Positions 490-7,147 of a stretch of DNA of 7,354 nt are shown here, one piece after another. Numbering within the stretch: the first letter of the stretch is position 1; every line of letters starts with the position of its first letter. The DNA comes from JBGPLH01 sp041486365 [NCBI: Thermodesulfobacteriota bacterium] (lineage in GTDB: Bacteria; JAUYMQ01), in contig JBGPLH010000163.1 in the NCBI GenBank assembly GCA_041486365.1, positions 1 through 7,354 of the forward strand, written 5' to 3'. A program made the position numbers and the translations under genes. Under the pieces are notes generated by a model that worked only from the letters and a program-made list of their open reading frames with translations, was not told the DNA's origin and did no database searches.

Positions 490-517
490 TTGCAGCGGTC
501 AGGGGAACGTGTATGCT
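490..517 (+). promoter_or_regulatory. candidate sigma70-type promoter for the potassium channel gene
   Basis: TTGCAG (490-495) and TATGCT (512-517) stand 16 bases apart in the space between divergent genes. The -10 matches the consensus at four of six positions and the -35 at three. The expected transcription start is near 524, which is itself an in-frame GTG codon, so the transcript may be leaderless. If this promoter is right, the earlier GTG at 509 would not be transcribed. Confidence 0.4.
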
Positions 518-1624
518 CGCCCCGTGAACCCTCGGGACGACGGCGCTTCGCAGCAATCCCGCGGCGCCCCGCCGCCCGGCCCCTTTTCCGCCGCGCGAGA
601 CTGGCTCGTGAGCGCGAAAGACGTCGCGCTCTCGCTGGAGCACCTCCGTCTTCCTCTCGCATTGCTGTTCGTGCTCACCGTGCTGGGCACGGCCGGCTAC
701 TGCCTGCTGCTGTCCGTCGATCCGATCGACGGCTTCTACCAGGCCGTCACCACGCTCTCCACGGTCGGCTTCCGGGAGATCAAGCCCTTCGATCACGGGA
801 CCAAGATCTTCACGATCCTGCTGATCCTCGTGGGAGTGGGGACCGTTTTCTACACCATCACCCTCCTCGCCGCCACCGTGGTGGAGGGCGACCTGCGTCG
901 GCGATTCCGCCGGAGAGTCATGATGCGCCGCATCGAAGGACTGGAGAAGCACTACGTGATCTGCGGCTTCGGCCGGGTGGGGGAATCCATCGCCCGCGAG
1001 TTCCTGGAGCGGCGCGAGGACTTCGTGGTGATCGACGCAGCCCAGGAGGCCGTGGAACGCGCGGAGGCGCTGGGCTGCCTCGTCGTCCGCGGAGACGCCG
1101 CCGCAGAGGACGCGTTGCGCTCTGCCGGGGTGGACCGGGCGCGCTCCCTGCTGGCCGCCACGGACTCCGACCCGACGAACATCTATATCACCCTCACCGC
1201 GAAGAGCGTGAACCCCTCCCTCTACGTGATCGCGCGGTCGGCCGGCGCCATCAGCGAGGAGAAACTCCGCCTCGCGGGCGCCGACCGCGTCGTCTCGCCC
1301 TATGCCATCGGCGGCCGGCGCATGGTGCTGAGCGCGCTCCAGCCGATGATCACCGACTTCATCGATGTCCTGGCGGCCGGCCGTCACGGGGACTTGATCC
1401 TCGCGGAGCTGGAGGTCTGCGCCGGATCCTCGCTCGAGGGCTCGGCGCTCGCGGACGCCTTCACCGAGGCGCCCTCGACCAAGGTGCTGGGCGTACGCAA
1501 GAGCGAGGGTGGTCTCGTCGTGGGGCCCGGCGGCGGCGAGGTCCTGCGCGCGGGCGACATCGTGATCGTGCTGGCCGACGAGACCGAGATCGAGCGCCTG
1601 GACACGCGCCGGTGGCGCCGCTGA
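509..1624 (+). CDS. two-TM potassium channel with RCK (TrkA_N/TrkA_C) regulatory domain
   Basis: A 371-residue single-subunit potassium channel of the MthK/YugO type, acting in the inner membrane. TM1 is about residues 46-69, the pore loop 73-92 and TM2 97-124. After a basic cytoplasmic linker (129-141), a Rossmann RCK domain begins with CGFGRVG (152-158, GxGxxG) and has Asp176 at the end of the second beta strand, where NAD or nucleotides usually bind. A TrkA_C domain fills about 290-368. The selectivity filter reads STVGFRE (84-90) instead of the canonical TVGYGD, so the Gly-Tyr-Gly core is altered. RCK channels are gated by Ca2+, nucleotides or similar ligands; the ligand here is unknown. 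The start is uncertain. GTG 509 has an AGGGGA only two bases upstream, which is tight, while GTG 524 sits seven bases after a TATGCT box and would give 366 residues. The N-terminal 40 residues are Pro/Ala-rich and unlikely to be conserved. Confidence 0.88.
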   Translation: MYARPVNPRDDGASQQSRGAPPPGPFSAARDWLVSAKDVALSLEHLRLPLALLFVLTVLGTAGYCLLLSVDPIDGFYQAVTTLSTVGFREIKPFDHGTKIFTILLILVGVGTVFYTITLLAATVVEGDLRRRFRRRVMMRRIEGLEKHYVICGFGRVGESIAREFLERREDFVVIDAAQEAVERAEALGCLVVRGDAAAEDALRSAGVDRARSLLAATDSDPTNIYITLTAKSVNPSLYVIARSAGAISEEKLRLAGADRVVSPYAIGGRRMVLSALQPMITDFIDVLAAGRHGDLILAELEVCAGSSLEGSALADAFTEAPSTKVLGVRKSEGGLVVGPGGGEVLRAGDIVIVLADETEIERLDTRRWRR

Positions 1625-1633
1625 GCGATTCCT

Positions 1634-4015
1634 TCAGAGGGACAGCCGCCTGAGCCGAAGCGCGTTGAAGATCACCGACACCGAGGACAGGCTCATCGCC
1701 GCGCTGGCCAGCACGGGGCTCAGCAGTATCCCGAAGAACGGGTAGAGCGCGCCCGCCGCGATCGGCACGCCGAGCGTGTTGTACACGAAGGCGAAGAAGA
1801 GGTTCTCGCGGATGTTGCGCATCGTGCCCCGCGAGAGCCGCCGCGCTTTCGCCACCCCCCGGAGATCCCCCTTCACGAGCGTCACGCCCGCCGATTCCAT
1901 CGCCACGTCGGTCCCTGTCCCCATGGCGATTCCCACCTGCGCCTGGGCCAGCGCGGGCGCGTCGTTGATCCCGTCGCCGGCCATCGCGACGATCCGTCCC
2001 TCCGCCTGCAGGTGCCTTATGGCCTCGATCTTCTGATCGGGAAGCACCTCCGCCCTCACGTCGTCGATGCCGAGCCGCCGCGCCACCGCCTCCGCCGTGG
2101 TCCGGCTGTCGCCCGTCACCATCACGATCCGCACCCCTTCCTCCCGCAGGATCCGGATCGCCTCCGGGGTCGACGGCTTCACCGGATCGGACACGCCGAG
2201 CAGGCCCGCGGCGCGGCCGTCGATGGAGACGAACATCACGCTCTGCCCCTCCGCCCGGAGCCGCTCCGCGTCCGCGAAGAGCGGGGTCGCGTTCGCGCCC
2301 TCCTCCTCCAGCAGCGTGGCGGTGCCCAGCGCGACGGCGCGCCCCTCCACGCTCCCCCGCACACCCTTCCCCGTGATCGAGCGGAAGCCGGAGGCCTCCG
2401 GCAGGGCGAGATTCCGTTCCCGCGCAGCCGCGACCACCGCGGCGGCCAGGGGGTGCTCGCTCCCGCGCTCCAGACCCGCGGCGAGCCGCAGGAGATCGGC
2501 CACCGCGATTCCCGGCGAAGCGATCGCGGCGGTGAGACGTGGCTTCCCCTCCGTGAGCGTCCCCGTCTTGTCCACCAGGAGCGTGTCGACCTTCTCGAGG
2601 ATCTCGAGCGCCTCCGCGTTCCGGATCAGCACGCCCATGGTCGCGCCGCGGCCCGTGCCCACCATGATCGACATGGGCGTTGCGAGGCCCAGCGCGCAGG
2701 GACATGCGATGATCAGCACGGCCACGGCGTTGACCAGTGCGTGGGCCACGCGGGGCTCCGGGCCGAAGAGCCACCAGACCATGAACGTGATGGCAGCGGC
2801 GGCCATCACCGCGGGGACGAACCAGCCCGTCACGCGATCGGCGAGCCGCTGGATCGGCGCGCGGCTACGCTGCGCCTCGCTCACCATGCGGACGATCCGC
2901 GCGAGGAGCGTGTCGCTCCCCACCTTCTCGGCCTCCATGATCAGGGCGCCCGTCCCGTTGATCGTGGCGCCGGTCACCGGATCGCCGGCGCCCTTCTCCA
3001 CGGGGATCGGCTCCCCCGTCACCATCGACTCGTCCACGGCGCTCGCGCCCTCGAGCACGACGCCGTCTACGGGGATCTTCTCGCCCGGACGCACGCGGAG
3101 CCGGTCGCCCGGTCGGACCTGTTCGAGCGGGACGTCCGCGTCCGCCCCGTCCTCCCCGATCCGCCGCGCCGTCGTCGGCGCGAGCCCCAGCAGCGCGCGA
3201 ATTGCTCCGCCCGTGCGGCTGCGCGCGCGCAGCTCCAGGACCTGTCCGAGCAGCACCAGCACGGTGATCACCGCGGCGGCCTCGAAGTAGACCTCCACCC
3301 GGCCGTGGTGGCCGCGGAAGGATGCGGGGAACGCGCCCGGGAAGAGCGTTGCGATCACGCTGTAACCCCACGCCGCGCCCACGCCCATCGCGATGAGCGT
3401 GAACATGTTCGTGTGGCGGCTCTTGAGGGCCGTCCATGCGCGCTCGAAGAAGGGCCCTCCCGCCCAGAGCACGACCGGGGTCGAGAGGAGAAGCTGGATC
3501 CAGACCGACAGGCGCGGCGCGACGAACCGATCGATCGGCAGGCCCGGGATCATCCCGGCGTTCGACAGGAGAAAGACGGGGACGGCCATTGCGAGGCCTA
3601 TCCGGAAGCGGCGTTCCATGTCGAGGAGCTCGCGCGAGACCTCCTCCCCGAGCGCGACCGTCCGCGGCTCGAGCGCCATGCCGCAGATCGGGCACGCGCC
3701 CGGCGCGTCGCGCACGACCTCCGGATGCATCGGGCAGGTATATTCGGCCGCTGCGGGACGCACGGGGGGGACGGCGGGCAGGGGGTTCTCGGGGATGAGC
3801 ACCGGCTCGGCACGGGAAAGGATCGCGGCGGGATCGCGCTCGAAGGCGTTCCGGCAGCCCGCGCTGCAGAAGTGGTACGTCGTCCCCTCGTGCGTGAGCG
3901 ATGCGGCCGCGCGCGAAGGGTCCACCGTCATGCCGCAGACGGGATCCCGCGCGGCCGGTGGCCCGGTCCCGTGACGCTCCCCCCGCGCGTGAGCGGAATG
4001 CCTTTCCTGCTCCAT
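1634..4015 (-). CDS. copA: Cu(I)-exporting P1B-1-type ATPase (CopA-like) with YHS and HMBD N-terminal domains
   Basis: A 793-residue heavy-metal P-type ATPase that moves Cu(I) (possibly also Ag(I)) out of the cytoplasm using ATP. The metal specificity is well supported: CPC at 438-440 in TM6, N738-x6-YN(745-746)-x4-P751 in TM7 and M774-x2-SS-x5-N784 in TM8 together form the P1B-1 signature. Catalytic parts are TGEP (333-336, actuator), DKTGT (482-486, phosphorylated Asp482), HP (521-522, nucleotide-binding domain) and GDGIND (680-685). Instead of classical CxxC HMA domains the N terminus has a YHS domain (24-66; Cys27, Cys50, Cys54) followed by a heavy-metal-binding domain with CPMHP (94-98) and CPICGM (109-113). 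The reading frame is open further up to 4192, but ATG 4015 is preferred. It has a GAGGA upstream, the YHS domain begins soon after, and the extension would cover the shared intergenic region. It is divergent from the metal-binding protein at 4193 and convergent with the channel gene, stop codons nine bases apart. No regulator is adjacent within the window. Confidence 0.95.
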
Positions 4016-4101
4016 GAGGCGCTTTCCTCGAATGAAAGGCCGTGAACCCGGTCGCAGCCCGCGCCGTTTCGACGCCGTGCTCGCGGAGGGAGCGTCGGGA
4101 T

Positions 4102-4115
4102 GGTAAAACTTTACC
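4102..4115. promoter_or_regulatory. perfect palindrome, candidate operator shared by copA and the Cys/Met-rich protein gene
   Basis: GGTAAA-AC-TTTACC is a perfect 6+2+6 inverted repeat and an AT-rich island in very GC-rich DNA. It lies in the 177-bp divergent region, 86 bases from the copA start codon and 77 from the start of the other gene. Inner geometry (TAAA-N2-TTTA) resembles the TACA-N2-TGTA box of CopY/BlaI-type repressors but differs at one position per half. No clear -35/-10 pair was found on either strand around it. Operator function is inferred from position and symmetry. Confidence 0.5.
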
Positions 4116-4177
4116 CCGCCCCCTGCCAACGCCCCGGCCTCCGCTCGCGCGAAGGCACTGCCGGGGCCGGCGAATCG

Positions 4178-4185
4178 AAAGGAGA
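4178..4185 (+). promoter_or_regulatory. ribosome binding site that fixes the start at 4193
   Basis: AAAGGAGA lies seven bases before ATG 4193, a near-ideal Shine-Dalgarno. It settles the start in favour of the codon that opens a clean signal peptide, over the in-frame start at 4100, which would run through the palindrome and lacks such a site. Confidence 0.8.
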
Positions 4186-4192
4186 CGAACAC

Positions 4193-4663
4193 ATGAAAAG
4201 GTCACCTGCCGTCGCAGCCCTCCTGGTCGCGGCGTTTCTCGGATCGGGCGCGCTGCTCGCCGCCCTGGCCGCCCCAGCCTCGGGCACGGGCGCCCCGGCC
4301 AAGGCCCCCTGCTGCGCCGACAAGAGCGGCGCGCGCAAGCACGCCTGCTCCGACAAGCAGGGCTGCGCAGACAAGGATGGCCGCTGCCGCGATCACATGG
4401 GGATGAACCCCGAGATGGCCGCGAAGATGACGGAGATGGACAAGCACATGGACGAGCTCGCGGCGAAGATGAACAGCGCGAAGGGCGACGAGAAGGTCGA
4501 CGCCATGGCCGCACTGCTCAACGAGATGCTCGCCCGGCACAAGACGATGGGCGACATGATGCGCGCCCACCACGAGGGGATGTGCGGCGAGGCGGCGGCG
4601 GGAGAGGACAAGAAGGAAGAGAAACCGAAGAGCCTCCTCGGCGAGCCGGGGCAGAGCCGGTAG
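4193..4663 (+). CDS. small exported Cys/Met/His-rich protein, putative copper-binding
   Basis: A 156-residue protein I cannot assign to a named family. Residues 1-28 form a signal peptide (Lys2/Arg3, a hydrophobic run at 6-26, then Ala-Ala-Pro), so it should be periplasmic or secreted. The mature part opens with a Cys cluster (Cys40, 41, 52, 58, 65) spaced by Lys/Asp/Gly-rich turns. It is followed by two predicted amphipathic helices (about 72-96 and 101-129) packed with Met and His, then Cys131 and a charged tail (137-149). The mature protein has six Cys, thirteen Met and six His and no Trp, which suits soft-metal binding, particularly Cu(I). A strong Shine-Dalgarno supports ATG 4193. It is transcribed divergently from the copper ATPase with a shared palindrome between them, so joint control by copper is plausible. 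Being exported, it could take up or buffer the metal that CopA releases. The metal, stoichiometry and role are inference; a general stress or disulfide role is not excluded. Confidence 0.8.
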
Positions 4664-4721: not shown

Positions 4722-5621
4722 TCATGGCCCGAAGAAGTCCTTGCCGTGCTCCTTCAGGAACGCGTCGCCCGCCTCGTTCCCCCACCGGACCGCCCGCGCC
4801 ACCTTCGACACGCTCCAGGAGTACTTGGAGAGGCCCAGCTCCCGCGACGGACGAAGCACCACGAGCCGTCCCGATCGACGGGCTTCCCGGACCGCCTCGC
4901 TCTCGCCCTCGTTGAAGAAGGACTCGCGCACGATTCCCTGCGGGTTGCTCACGAGAGCGAGCACGCGATCGCATCCGCGCTCGAAGAGGGACATGACGGG
5001 GTTCTTGTCCACGAAGCCGCCGTCCACGTAGTGCGTCCCGTTGATGCGCGCGCGGACCGGGTAGAGGACGGGGATCCGCCCGCTGGCGTACAGCACCTCC
5101 CGCAGGTTCTCGCGCATCTCGGGCTCGCGGCTGCTGAAGACCACGCCCTCCAGCGGCGGGAGTGGCAGATCGCGGCCGCGGACCCGGGCGAGCCGCCGCG
5201 AAAGCGGATAGCGGAGCAGCGCCCCCTCCGTCCACGCGCCCGTGTGCCAGTCGTCTCCCACGAGGCGCGTGCAGACGACGAGGAACTCCATGGACGATCC
5301 GGTGATCGTGCGGGCGACGCCCGGAGCGAGCCCGCGATCGAGGGCACGGCTGAAGATGCGGCTCATGTTGAAGATCGATCCGCCGTTCGCTGTCCGCGAT
5401 TCACGCCGGAAGTCCACGAGCGGCATCGACGCGAGGCCGATCCAGTTCTCCTCGAGCAGATCGGGCCGCCCCGCGATAAACCCCGCGCCGTTGCAGGCGC
5501 CGGAGGAGGAGCCGGCCACGAGATCCGGACGGATCCCGCGTCGCAGGAATGACTGCAATACCCCCGCGATGAAGGCGCCGCGCCAGCTCGCCGCCTCCAG
5601 GCTGATCCCGATCCGCGCCAC
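4722..5621 (-). CDS. patatin-like phospholipase family protein
   Basis: A 299-residue lipid acyl hydrolase of the patatin fold, with a Ser-Asp dyad and no signal peptide or membrane segment, so probably cytoplasmic. The nucleophile elbow is GSSSG at 37-41 with Ser39. The catalytic Asp is in DGG at 200-202 (Asp200), preceded by ASGRIPVLYP (179-188), which matches the ASxxxPxxFPP stretch of the family. The oxyanion-hole loop, normally Gly-Gly-Gly-x-Arg-Gly, here reads AASWRG (10-15): the three glycines are replaced, yet Arg14-Gly15 and the following AGVL (19-22) fit. Start is GTG 5621 with GGAGG five bases upstream. It converges on the metal-binding protein gene and ends at a shared hairpin. 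Upstream it is separated from the di-haem peroxidase by that gene's terminator, so it is probably a single-gene unit. Patatins release fatty acids from phospholipids or neutral lipids; the actual substrate is unknown. Confidence 0.88.
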   Translation of the reverse strand: MARIGISLEAASWRGAFIAGVLQSFLRRGIRPDLVAGSSSGACNGAGFIAGRPDLLEENWIGLASMPLVDFRRESRTANGGSIFNMSRIFSRALDRGLAPGVARTITGSSMEFLVVCTRLVGDDWHTGAWTEGALLRYPLSRRLARVRGRDLPLPPLEGVVFSSREPEMRENLREVLYASGRIPVLYPVRARINGTHYVDGGFVDKNPVMSLFERGCDRVLALVSNPQGIVRESFFNEGESEAVREARRSGRLVVLRPSRELGLSKYSWSVSKVARAVRWGNEAGDAFLKEHGKDFFGP

Positions 5622-5785: not shown

Positions 5786-7093
5786 TCAGTTGCCGGGCGA
5801 CGCGGGAGGCGTCGACCCGACCGGCGCCTCGGGCGCAGGTGCGGGGGCCACGGGCTGGGCGGCCTCAGGCGCAGGCGCGGTCTCCGCGGGTGGTGCCGCC
5901 TCCGGCGCAGGCGCCGCCTCCGGCGCAGGCGCACCCTCCGGGGGTGGCGCCGCTCCGGGCGACGGCGCGGCGGGAGCTTCGACTGCCTGCGGGGGCGAGG
6001 CCGGGAGGGTGGGCTCCGCCACGTCGATCTCGCGCGTCAGCCCCTCCGTCATGAACGTCACCAGATCGCCCATTTCCTCCGGCGTGAGGTGCAGGGGCTG
6101 GATCAGGGGATCGAGGTTCTTGTTCGCGATGCCGCCCCGGTCGTACAGCTCCACCACCTTCTCGATCGTCGCCTCGCTCCCGTCATGCATGTAGGGCGCC
6201 GTGAGCGCCACGTTGCGCAGCGTCGGCGTCTTGAACTTCGCCCGGTCCTTCTCTTCCTTCGTGAAGTCCATCCGACCCGCGTCGGGCTTCGGGTTCTGCG
6301 TCCCCACGCCGAGGTTGTGGAACTGGTTGTCCATGAAGCTCGGCCCGAGGTGACAGACCACGCAACGCCCCTTCCCCTCGAACACTGCGAGCCCGCGCTG
6401 CGCTCCCTGCGAGAGCGCCGCATTGTCGCCCGCCCTGAAGCGATCGTAGGGCGCGTCACCCGAGAGGATCGTCCGCTCGAAGCTGGCGATCGCCATGGCC
6501 ACCCTTTCCGGCGTGATCGGCCCGGGGCCGAAGGCCTTCTCGAAGGCCTGGGCGTAATCCCCGAGCCCCGAGACGGTCTTCACCATTCCCTCGACTGTGT
6601 TCCCCATCTCGATCGGGTTCTGGACCGGGCCGAGCGCCTGCTCCTCGAGGCTGCGCGCGCGGCCGTCCCAGAACTGCACGGCGCCGTAGGCGGCGTTGTA
6701 GATCGTCGGCGCGTTGCGCGCGCCGAGCTTGCCGCCGACACCCGGCGAGAACGCGACGCCGTTGGAGAAACCCATGGCCGGGTTGTGGCAGCTCGCGCAG
6801 GAGATCGTGCTGTCGGAGGAGAGCCGCTTGTCGAAGTAGAGCTGACGGCCCAGCTCGACCTTCTCCGCCGTCACGGGGTTGTCCGCTGGAATTGGAACGG
6901 GCGGGAGCCCCTCGGGGGGATCGTGCGCGAGCTCCGCGCTCCAGGGGATCTTCGCCGGCTGGACGGGCGCGGGCTCGGCCTTCTGCGCCGGCGCGGGCGG
7001 TGCGGGCGGCGCCTCCTCCTTCTTCGGGCCGCCGCAAGCGGACAGTGCCAGGACCAGGCCCGGCACGAGGACTCCTCGGAAGATCGAGTGCAT
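5786..7093 (-). CDS. di-haem cytochrome c peroxidase / MauG-family lipoprotein
   Basis: A 435-residue di-haem enzyme of the bacterial cytochrome c peroxidase/MauG superfamily. The N terminus is a lipoprotein signal with lipobox LSAC (Cys20), followed by a Pro/Ala linker (28-49), so it is membrane-tethered on the periplasmic side. Haem sites are C99-A-S-C102-H103 and C244-V-V-C247-H248. Trp142, Gln152 and Glu162 lie 39, 49 and 59 residues after His103, the same spacing as Trp94, Gln104 and Glu114 after His55 in Pseudomonas CcpA (reference numbering from memory). The distal His (CcpA His71) is not found; Val119 falls at its spacing. The position of axial Met275 (14 residues after the His of HDG, here His303) is Tyr317. 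Both changes point towards MauG-like chemistry. The last ~75 residues are a Pro/Ala/Glu tail with PAPEAA repeats. Start is ATG 7093 with GGAGGG seven bases upstream, preferred over TTG 7099. It has its own promoter and terminator. Substrate unknown. Confidence 0.9.
   Translation of the reverse strand: MHSIFRGVLVPGLVLALSACGGPKKEEAPPAPPAPAQKAEPAPVQPAKIPWSAELAHDPPEGLPPVPIPADNPVTAEKVELGRQLYFDKRLSSDSTISCASCHNPAMGFSNGVAFSPGVGGKLGARNAPTIYNAAYGAVQFWDGRARSLEEQALGPVQNPIEMGNTVEGMVKTVSGLGDYAQAFEKAFGPGPITPERVAMAIASFERTILSGDAPYDRFRAGDNAALSQGAQRGLAVFEGKGRCVVCHLGPSFMDNQFHNLGVGTQNPKPDAGRMDFTKEEKDRAKFKTPTLRNVALTAPYMHDGSEATIEKVVELYDRGGIANKNLDPLIQPLHLTPEEMGDLVTFMTEGLTREIDVAEPTLPASPPQAVEAPAAPSPGAAPPPEGAPAPEAAPAPEAAPPAETAPAPEAAQPVAPAPAPEAPVGSTPPASPGN
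5816..5974 (-). repeat. low-complexity coding repeat (PAPEAA-type) in the peroxidase C-terminal tail
   Basis: Codons for residues 374-426 are almost only Pro, Ala, Glu, Gly and Ser. Two adjacent 18-base units (5894-5911 and 5912-5929) differ at one base and encode PAPEAA twice; a third copy encodes residues 407-412. Such tails are extended and flexible and can change length by slippage. Confidence 0.8.
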
Positions 7094-7147
7094 CGCCAAT
7101 CCCTCCCTCTCTCCGTCCGTTACACGAATCTCCGTCAGGTCCCGGGC

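Follow-up and report, generated by a model that had tools for sequence, protein, structure and literature searches.

The window, by which we mean the whole 7,354-nucleotide stretch of DNA analysed here, contains a short gene transcribed divergently from a copper-ATPase gene (copA), and we infer that its product, an exported protein rich in Cys, Met and His, binds copper and on balance serves as a periplasmic sponge for Cu(I), possibly also for Ag(I). A protein of this functional kind is already known, and the best reading, by analogy, is that the small protein would work like SilE, PcoE and CopM without belonging to any of them; its sequence matches no described family among those searched.

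Table 1. Features of copA, the small gene and the region between them, as positions in the window.
Feature	Position	Strand	Basis
copA, P1B-1 Cu(I)/Ag(I)-type ATPase, 793 aa from ATG	1634..4015	-	Pfam, NCBIfam, motifs
Sigma-70-like hexamers TTGGCA/TACCAT, 18 nt apart, copA-directed	4100..4129	-	9/12; consensus match only
AT-rich palindrome GGTAAA-AC-TTTACC, possible operator	4102..4115	.	Sequence, shuffles
Likely ribosome-binding site GGAG	4181..4184	+	8 nt before ATG; sequence
Gene for exported Cys/Met/His protein, 156 aa	4193..4663, including stop	+	ORF; codon composition copA-like
Export-type signal, residues 1-29	4193..4279	+	By eye
Cys cluster C40, C41, C52, C58, C65 (residues 40-65)	4310..4387	+	Sequence
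Predicted helix 1, residues 73-95; one-face Met 75, 79, 82, 86, 93	4409..4477	+	AlphaFold2, face test
Predicted helix 2, residues 99-130	4487..4582	+	AlphaFold2, face test
Sixth Cys, C131, immediately past helix 2	4583..4585	+	Sequence

The copA region

The arrangement described in an earlier note on this DNA, in which the small gene diverges from a Cu(I) ATPase gene across a palindrome, is borne out (Table 1), and the gap between the two genes is 177 nt. CopA scores over the cut-offs for E1-E2_ATPase, HMBD and YHS (Pfam), with YHS and HMBD lying N-terminally, and for TIGR01511 and TIGR01525 (NCBIfam); no HMA domain was matched up to E 1. Its motifs include CPC at residue 438, YNTLGVP at 745 and MSLSS at 774, and it thus carries what we take to be the P1B-1 Cu(I) signatures, CPC in TM6, YN in TM7 and MxxSS in TM8; with these and TIGR01511 present it is classed as a P1B-1 Cu(I) ATPase, and export of Cu(I) from the cytoplasm is predicted from the family signatures. 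Searches with CopA (tblastn) match at least 5000 plasmid records, and among the matches listed the best have ~63% identity over nearly the whole query and one has 65.6% identity over 87%.

The ORF at 4193-4663 is a real gene, with codon-position G+C (0.66/0.49/0.91) close to that of copA (0.72/0.52/0.92), as expected of one. A longer reading of 187 aa from an ATG at 4100 was set aside, as it begins at the edge of the palindrome and, judged by eye, would leave the signal sequence internal. The signal comprises K2-R3, a hydrophobic segment at residues 6-27 and A27-P28-A29 as a cleavage motif (by eye), and from this N terminus we infer export via Sec. The small gene appears to stand alone, since the next gene downstream, encoding a patatin-like phospholipase (4722-5621), is on the opposite strand.

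It is plausible that the palindrome in the intergenic gap is an operator, and the sigma-70-like hexamers directed toward copA overlap it. A 6-bp arm is not in itself unusual for this gap, being attained in 134 of 300 shuffles that keep mononucleotide composition and in 158 of 300 that keep dinucleotide composition. Palindromes with 6-bp arms that are also AT-rich are rare (4 of 2000 shuffles and 11 of 1000, respectively), although this criterion was set post hoc. The exact core, GTAAANNTTTAC, is present in none of 23 comparison loci, and no regulator gene was recognised within the window.

Three other genes of the window are noted here. A potassium channel with Ion_trans_2, TrkA-N and TrkA-C domains is encoded at 509-1621 (+), and a leftward ORF running off the window end (3 to ~450) begins with a hydrophobic segment and contains the motif GDSYTFG, which from the sequence perhaps indicates an SGNH-type hydrolase. 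The di-haem peroxidase encoded at 5786-7099 (-) is MauG/MbnH-like; its start carries a lipobox-like LSACGG and its tail is rich in Ala, Pro and Glu. It stays well under cut-off for both TIGR03791 (246 of the 444 bits required) and TIGR04039 (241 of 363 bits); enzymes of the MbnH kind have links to copper proteins.

Cys repeats and Met/His faces in the small protein

The protein had been described from the sequence as short and secreted, with a five-Cys cluster near the N terminus and two helices studded with Met and His, and this description stands: an export-type signal, the Cys cluster and two predicted helices follow one another along the chain. Within the cluster there are three C-[AS]-D-K-x-G repeats (residues 41-46, 52-57 and 58-63); when residues 38-70 are shuffled 20000 times, no shuffle has two or more copies of C.DK.G, a motif defined post hoc. 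In the periplasm these Cys residues could oxidise to disulfides. The mature portion (residues 29-156) has 13 Met and six His. It lacks F, W, Y and I altogether and contains six Leu and a single Val, so that Met is its commonest bulky residue.

AlphaFold2 run without an alignment predicts, with moderate confidence, the two helices and little else in the full protein (pTM 0.37), with pLDDT of 74-89 in the 10-residue blocks from 71 to 130 and lower values in the remainder; both helices are predicted again when residues 30-156 are modelled by themselves (pTM 0.39). A Foldseek search of the predicted structure against the PDB gave no match at E ≤0.001 (best E 1.4). The helices hold 11 of the 13 mature Met, and in helix 2 Met and His lie mostly on one face (residues 105, 112, 116, 119, 122, 123, 126, 127 and 130). 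With helix limits taken from the AlphaFold2 model, Met clusters on one face of helix 1 (R 0.94, P 0.0003; P 0.004 when only A/L/V/M/H positions are permuted), and so do Met plus His taken together (P 0.003 and 0.025 respectively). The corresponding values for helix 2 are P 0.002 and 0.009 for Met, and 0 of 50000 and P 0.0015 for Met plus His. When helix 1 is widened to residues 68-95 and the hydrophobic-position pool is used, the signal is weaker (Met P 0.062, Met plus His P 0.028). Such a stripe need not mean metal binding, since Met also packs helix cores.

There are also five SilE-type motifs, HxxM at residues 68, 116 and 127 and MxxH at 82 and 123, compared with a shuffle mean of 1.2 for the mature chain (0.3% of 20000 shuffles reach five). 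The excess is smaller inside the Met-rich core: for residues 66-132 it is 5 against 1.9 (2.2% of shuffles), and 6.6% of shuffles reach the count with MxxM added.

Relationship to known copper and silver proteins

For SilE, PcoE and CopM, all of them exported and rich in Met and His, binding of silver or copper is reported in excerpts of PMC5008109 and PMC4335983, and SilE is described in the former as disordered when free, folding on Ag(I) and helical when metal-loaded. The small protein resembles SilE and PcoE in being short, exported and Met/His-rich with HxxM/MxxH motifs, and its locus resembles that of SilE in its ATPase, window CopA being ~58% identical to a SilP whose silver-resistance locus includes silE; unlike SilE and PcoE, it has six Cys. 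Membership in the SilE family was rejected. The SilE model NF047789 is absent among the matches of the small protein up to E 1 (290.6 bits for a SilE control), the composite motifs given for SilE in the excerpt of PMC5008109, MxxHx(5-6)HxxM and HxxMxxxHxxM, are both missing, and the alignment score against SilE is reached by 108 of 1000 shuffles.

CopM, a DUF305 protein, is described in the excerpt of PMC4335983 as exported, Met-rich and encoded near copper genes. The small protein shares with the DUF305 protein of one CopA-anchored plasmid locus (L002) the pentapeptide AHHEG (residues 125-129), and differs in that the portion past HH in DUF305 proteins has, by eye, no visible counterpart in it. 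PF03713 (DUF305) gives no match up to E 10 (DUF305 control, E 4.2e-14), and in pairwise alignments with three DUF305 proteins 90, 699 and 38 of 1000 shuffles do as well as the real sequence, the last count being for a Hymenobacter protein; with 13 such tries these are not beyond shuffles, and membership in DUF305/CopM was rejected. CutF-like (DUF2946) proteins, small exported Cys proteins linked to copper genes in the excerpt of PMC8456105, are likewise similar in size, export, Cys content and position beside a copper gene. They too were rejected as relatives, the small protein having no CxxxC, no CxxC, no PP (C-terminal in CutF) and no Pfam match to PF11162 (DUF2946). CusF, CopK and DUF411 were set aside as kin after profile and pairwise comparisons.

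Across all 13 proteins compared pairwise, between 9 and 892 of 1000 shuffles attain the observed score, and the two lowest counts, for a Pseudomonas kurunegalensis protein (9/1000) and the Hymenobacter DUF305 protein, are not significant over 13 tries. The likeness to these proteins is one of composition and layout and not of demonstrable descent. The lack of a match to known copper proteins in the earlier note thus holds through the searches run (Pfam, NCBIfam, PHROGs, PDB and pairwise).

Searches for homologues

The small protein has no match near cut-off in Pfam, NCBIfam, PHROGs or PDB chains, and tblastn finds none in plasmids, with E up to 0.01 for the full protein and up to 10 for its core, or in phages (to E 0.1). 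Masking is unlikely to be the cause, since residues 40-156 still match themselves in a local run with SEG on. A scan of genome contigs, which detects only relatives sharing one of six octapeptides, returned 129 stretches matching a pattern, of which one was reported. It was rejected as a homologue and looks like chance: the identical run MTEMDKHMD, an octamer of which was itself a search pattern, starts a 420-aa Dojkabacteria ORF and is accompanied by scattered identities (19 of 48; 32.7 bits). None of 96 genomes comprising this one and its kin has a match, which is uninformative because nothing links that group to the window. Among viral contigs 12 stretches were found with none confirmed, two degenerate patterns gave none, and short peptide words of the small protein were not found in the literature. 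The missing homologues reflect the limit of the search and are not proof of an orphan.

Small Met-rich proteins near other CopA-type ATPases

Thirteen CopA-anchored plasmid loci (L002-L014), each from a different genus or lineage, were taken from 120 matches listed. A crude six-frame filter, which picks short ORFs whose start is apolar and whose body is Met/His/Cys-rich, finds candidates in 4 of the 13 (L002, L005, L009 and L012), although it undercounts, missing SilE itself, and takes ORFs without asking if they are genes. In a Hymenobacter plasmid (L010:3859-4335) a small Cys/His protein with the segment HDCCKDKS is encoded divergently from CopA; it has no Pfam match up to E 1, and its alignment score with the small protein is reached by 278 of 1000 shuffles.

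The L012 ORF (3552-3983) belongs to a Met-rich family with export-type starts, annotated 'hypothetical protein' and found in 83 plasmid records. Its members are 133-151 aa long, their hosts are Acinetobacter, Pseudomonas, Burkholderiales and Legionella, and they have no cut-off match in Pfam (L012 scanned) or NCBIfam (L012, L015, L018 and L021 scanned). Nine further loci of this family (L015-L023) were taken from 60 listed of the 83 records, and in six (L015, L017, L018, L020, L021 and L023) the fetched stretch contains a CopA-type ATPase by tblastn. L022 has an annotated multicopper oxidase and no CopA-type ATPase, L016 has neither, and no ATPase was found by tblastn in the unannotated L019. 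In L012, L018, L020, L021 and L023 the ATPase aligns with window CopA as far as its YHS part; the alignment for L017 starts at residue 92, short of the YHS part, and L015 holds only the C-terminal part. A DUF2933 gene follows the Met-rich gene in L012 and in the six ATPase-bearing loci, and five of these seven loci also have an isoprenylcysteine methyltransferase.

The small protein is like this family in its export-type start, its Met and His content and the CopA-type ATPase nearby, and unlike it in that the family has no comparable Cys cluster. An HMM of ten members scores the core of the small protein at -2.2 bits, a value that plain shuffles attain in 661 of 3000 cases and class-preserving shuffles in 649 of 3000. 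Membership in the plasmid family was therefore rejected, the best pairwise result among the 13 targets also being non-significant when corrected.

Function of the small protein

If the small protein is a sponge, then CopA would pump Cu(I) out of the cytoplasm, and the small protein, exported via Sec, would capture the metal in the periplasm through its Cys repeats and through the Met/His sites that line one side of a hairpin of two helices. Binding might be accompanied by folding or dimerisation, as reported for SilE and PcoE, and would keep free periplasmic Cu(I) low; the shared intergenic region and palindrome would allow one metal-responsive regulator to switch on both genes. Support comes from the divergent pairing with a P1B-1 ATPase that resembles SilP, the export-type signal, the layout as a single gene, the one-sided Met/His arrangement, the motifs and the Cys repeats, and from the precedents of SilE, PcoE and CopM together with the small Met/His-rich export-type proteins near plasmid CopA-type ATPases. 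It is weakened by the lack of a homologue and by a structure predicted from one sequence at low pTM, and a single divergent pair, seen in one window, may be a coincidence. The earlier note had proposed a periplasmic acceptor or buffer for the metal exported by CopA, which is supported in part. The periplasmic Cu(I) role fits the position, export-type signal and composition, and agrees with the one-sided stripes, the Cys repeats and the likeness of CopA to SilP; of the two alternatives, analogy with SilE and PcoE would favour a buffer over an acceptor.

The main rival to a sponge is a chaperone like CutF or CusF, one dedicated to periplasmic Cu(I) that would dock to CopA, accept a single Cu(I) with its Cys cluster and deliver it to a cuproenzyme or efflux system encoded elsewhere in that genome. 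The cluster and the adjoining copA suit such a role, which is proposed for CutF and reported for CusF in the excerpt of PMC8456105; we nevertheless consider it unlikely, given the missing CutF motifs and DUF2946 match, a complement of 13 Met and six Cys that suggests capacity for several ions, and the fact that the scanned window genes include neither a multicopper oxidase nor an RND efflux gene. Doubtful to a similar degree is a more novel scheme in which the protein is the first member to be described of a new family of two-part Cu(I)-capturing proteins, whose C-x-D-K-x-G repeats would take copper from a YHS-type CopA lacking HMA and pass it to the Met/His-lined hairpin, with the pair under one operator and perhaps a dimer forming a Met-lined four-helix store.

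That the protein is a coiled-coil component of the envelope, with Met used for packing and its place by copA accidental, seems improbable. Only a helical hairpin is predicted, there is a weak HSBP1 match (E 0.089, under cut-off), and no homologue shows the linkage to copA; packing, however, would hardly call for 13 Met against six Leu, one Val and no Ile, and has no need of HxxM/MxxH motifs or Cys repeats. Equally the Cys repeats, if metallothionein-like, and the identity of the partner ATPase to the silver exporter SilP could point to an exported binder of one or more other soft metals (Ag, Hg, Cd or Zn), but the P1B-1 signatures of the partner and the Met/His sites, which favour Cu(I)/Ag(I) over Zn/Cd, make this quite improbable.

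To our knowledge, the recipient of Cu(I) beyond CopA has been worked out in few bacteria. If the small protein is a sponge, it would do the job of SilE and PcoE with a sequence of no detectable kinship to theirs and with thiol and thioether sites combined, and it would be a hint that unannotated Met-rich proteins may frequently accompany CopA-type pumps.
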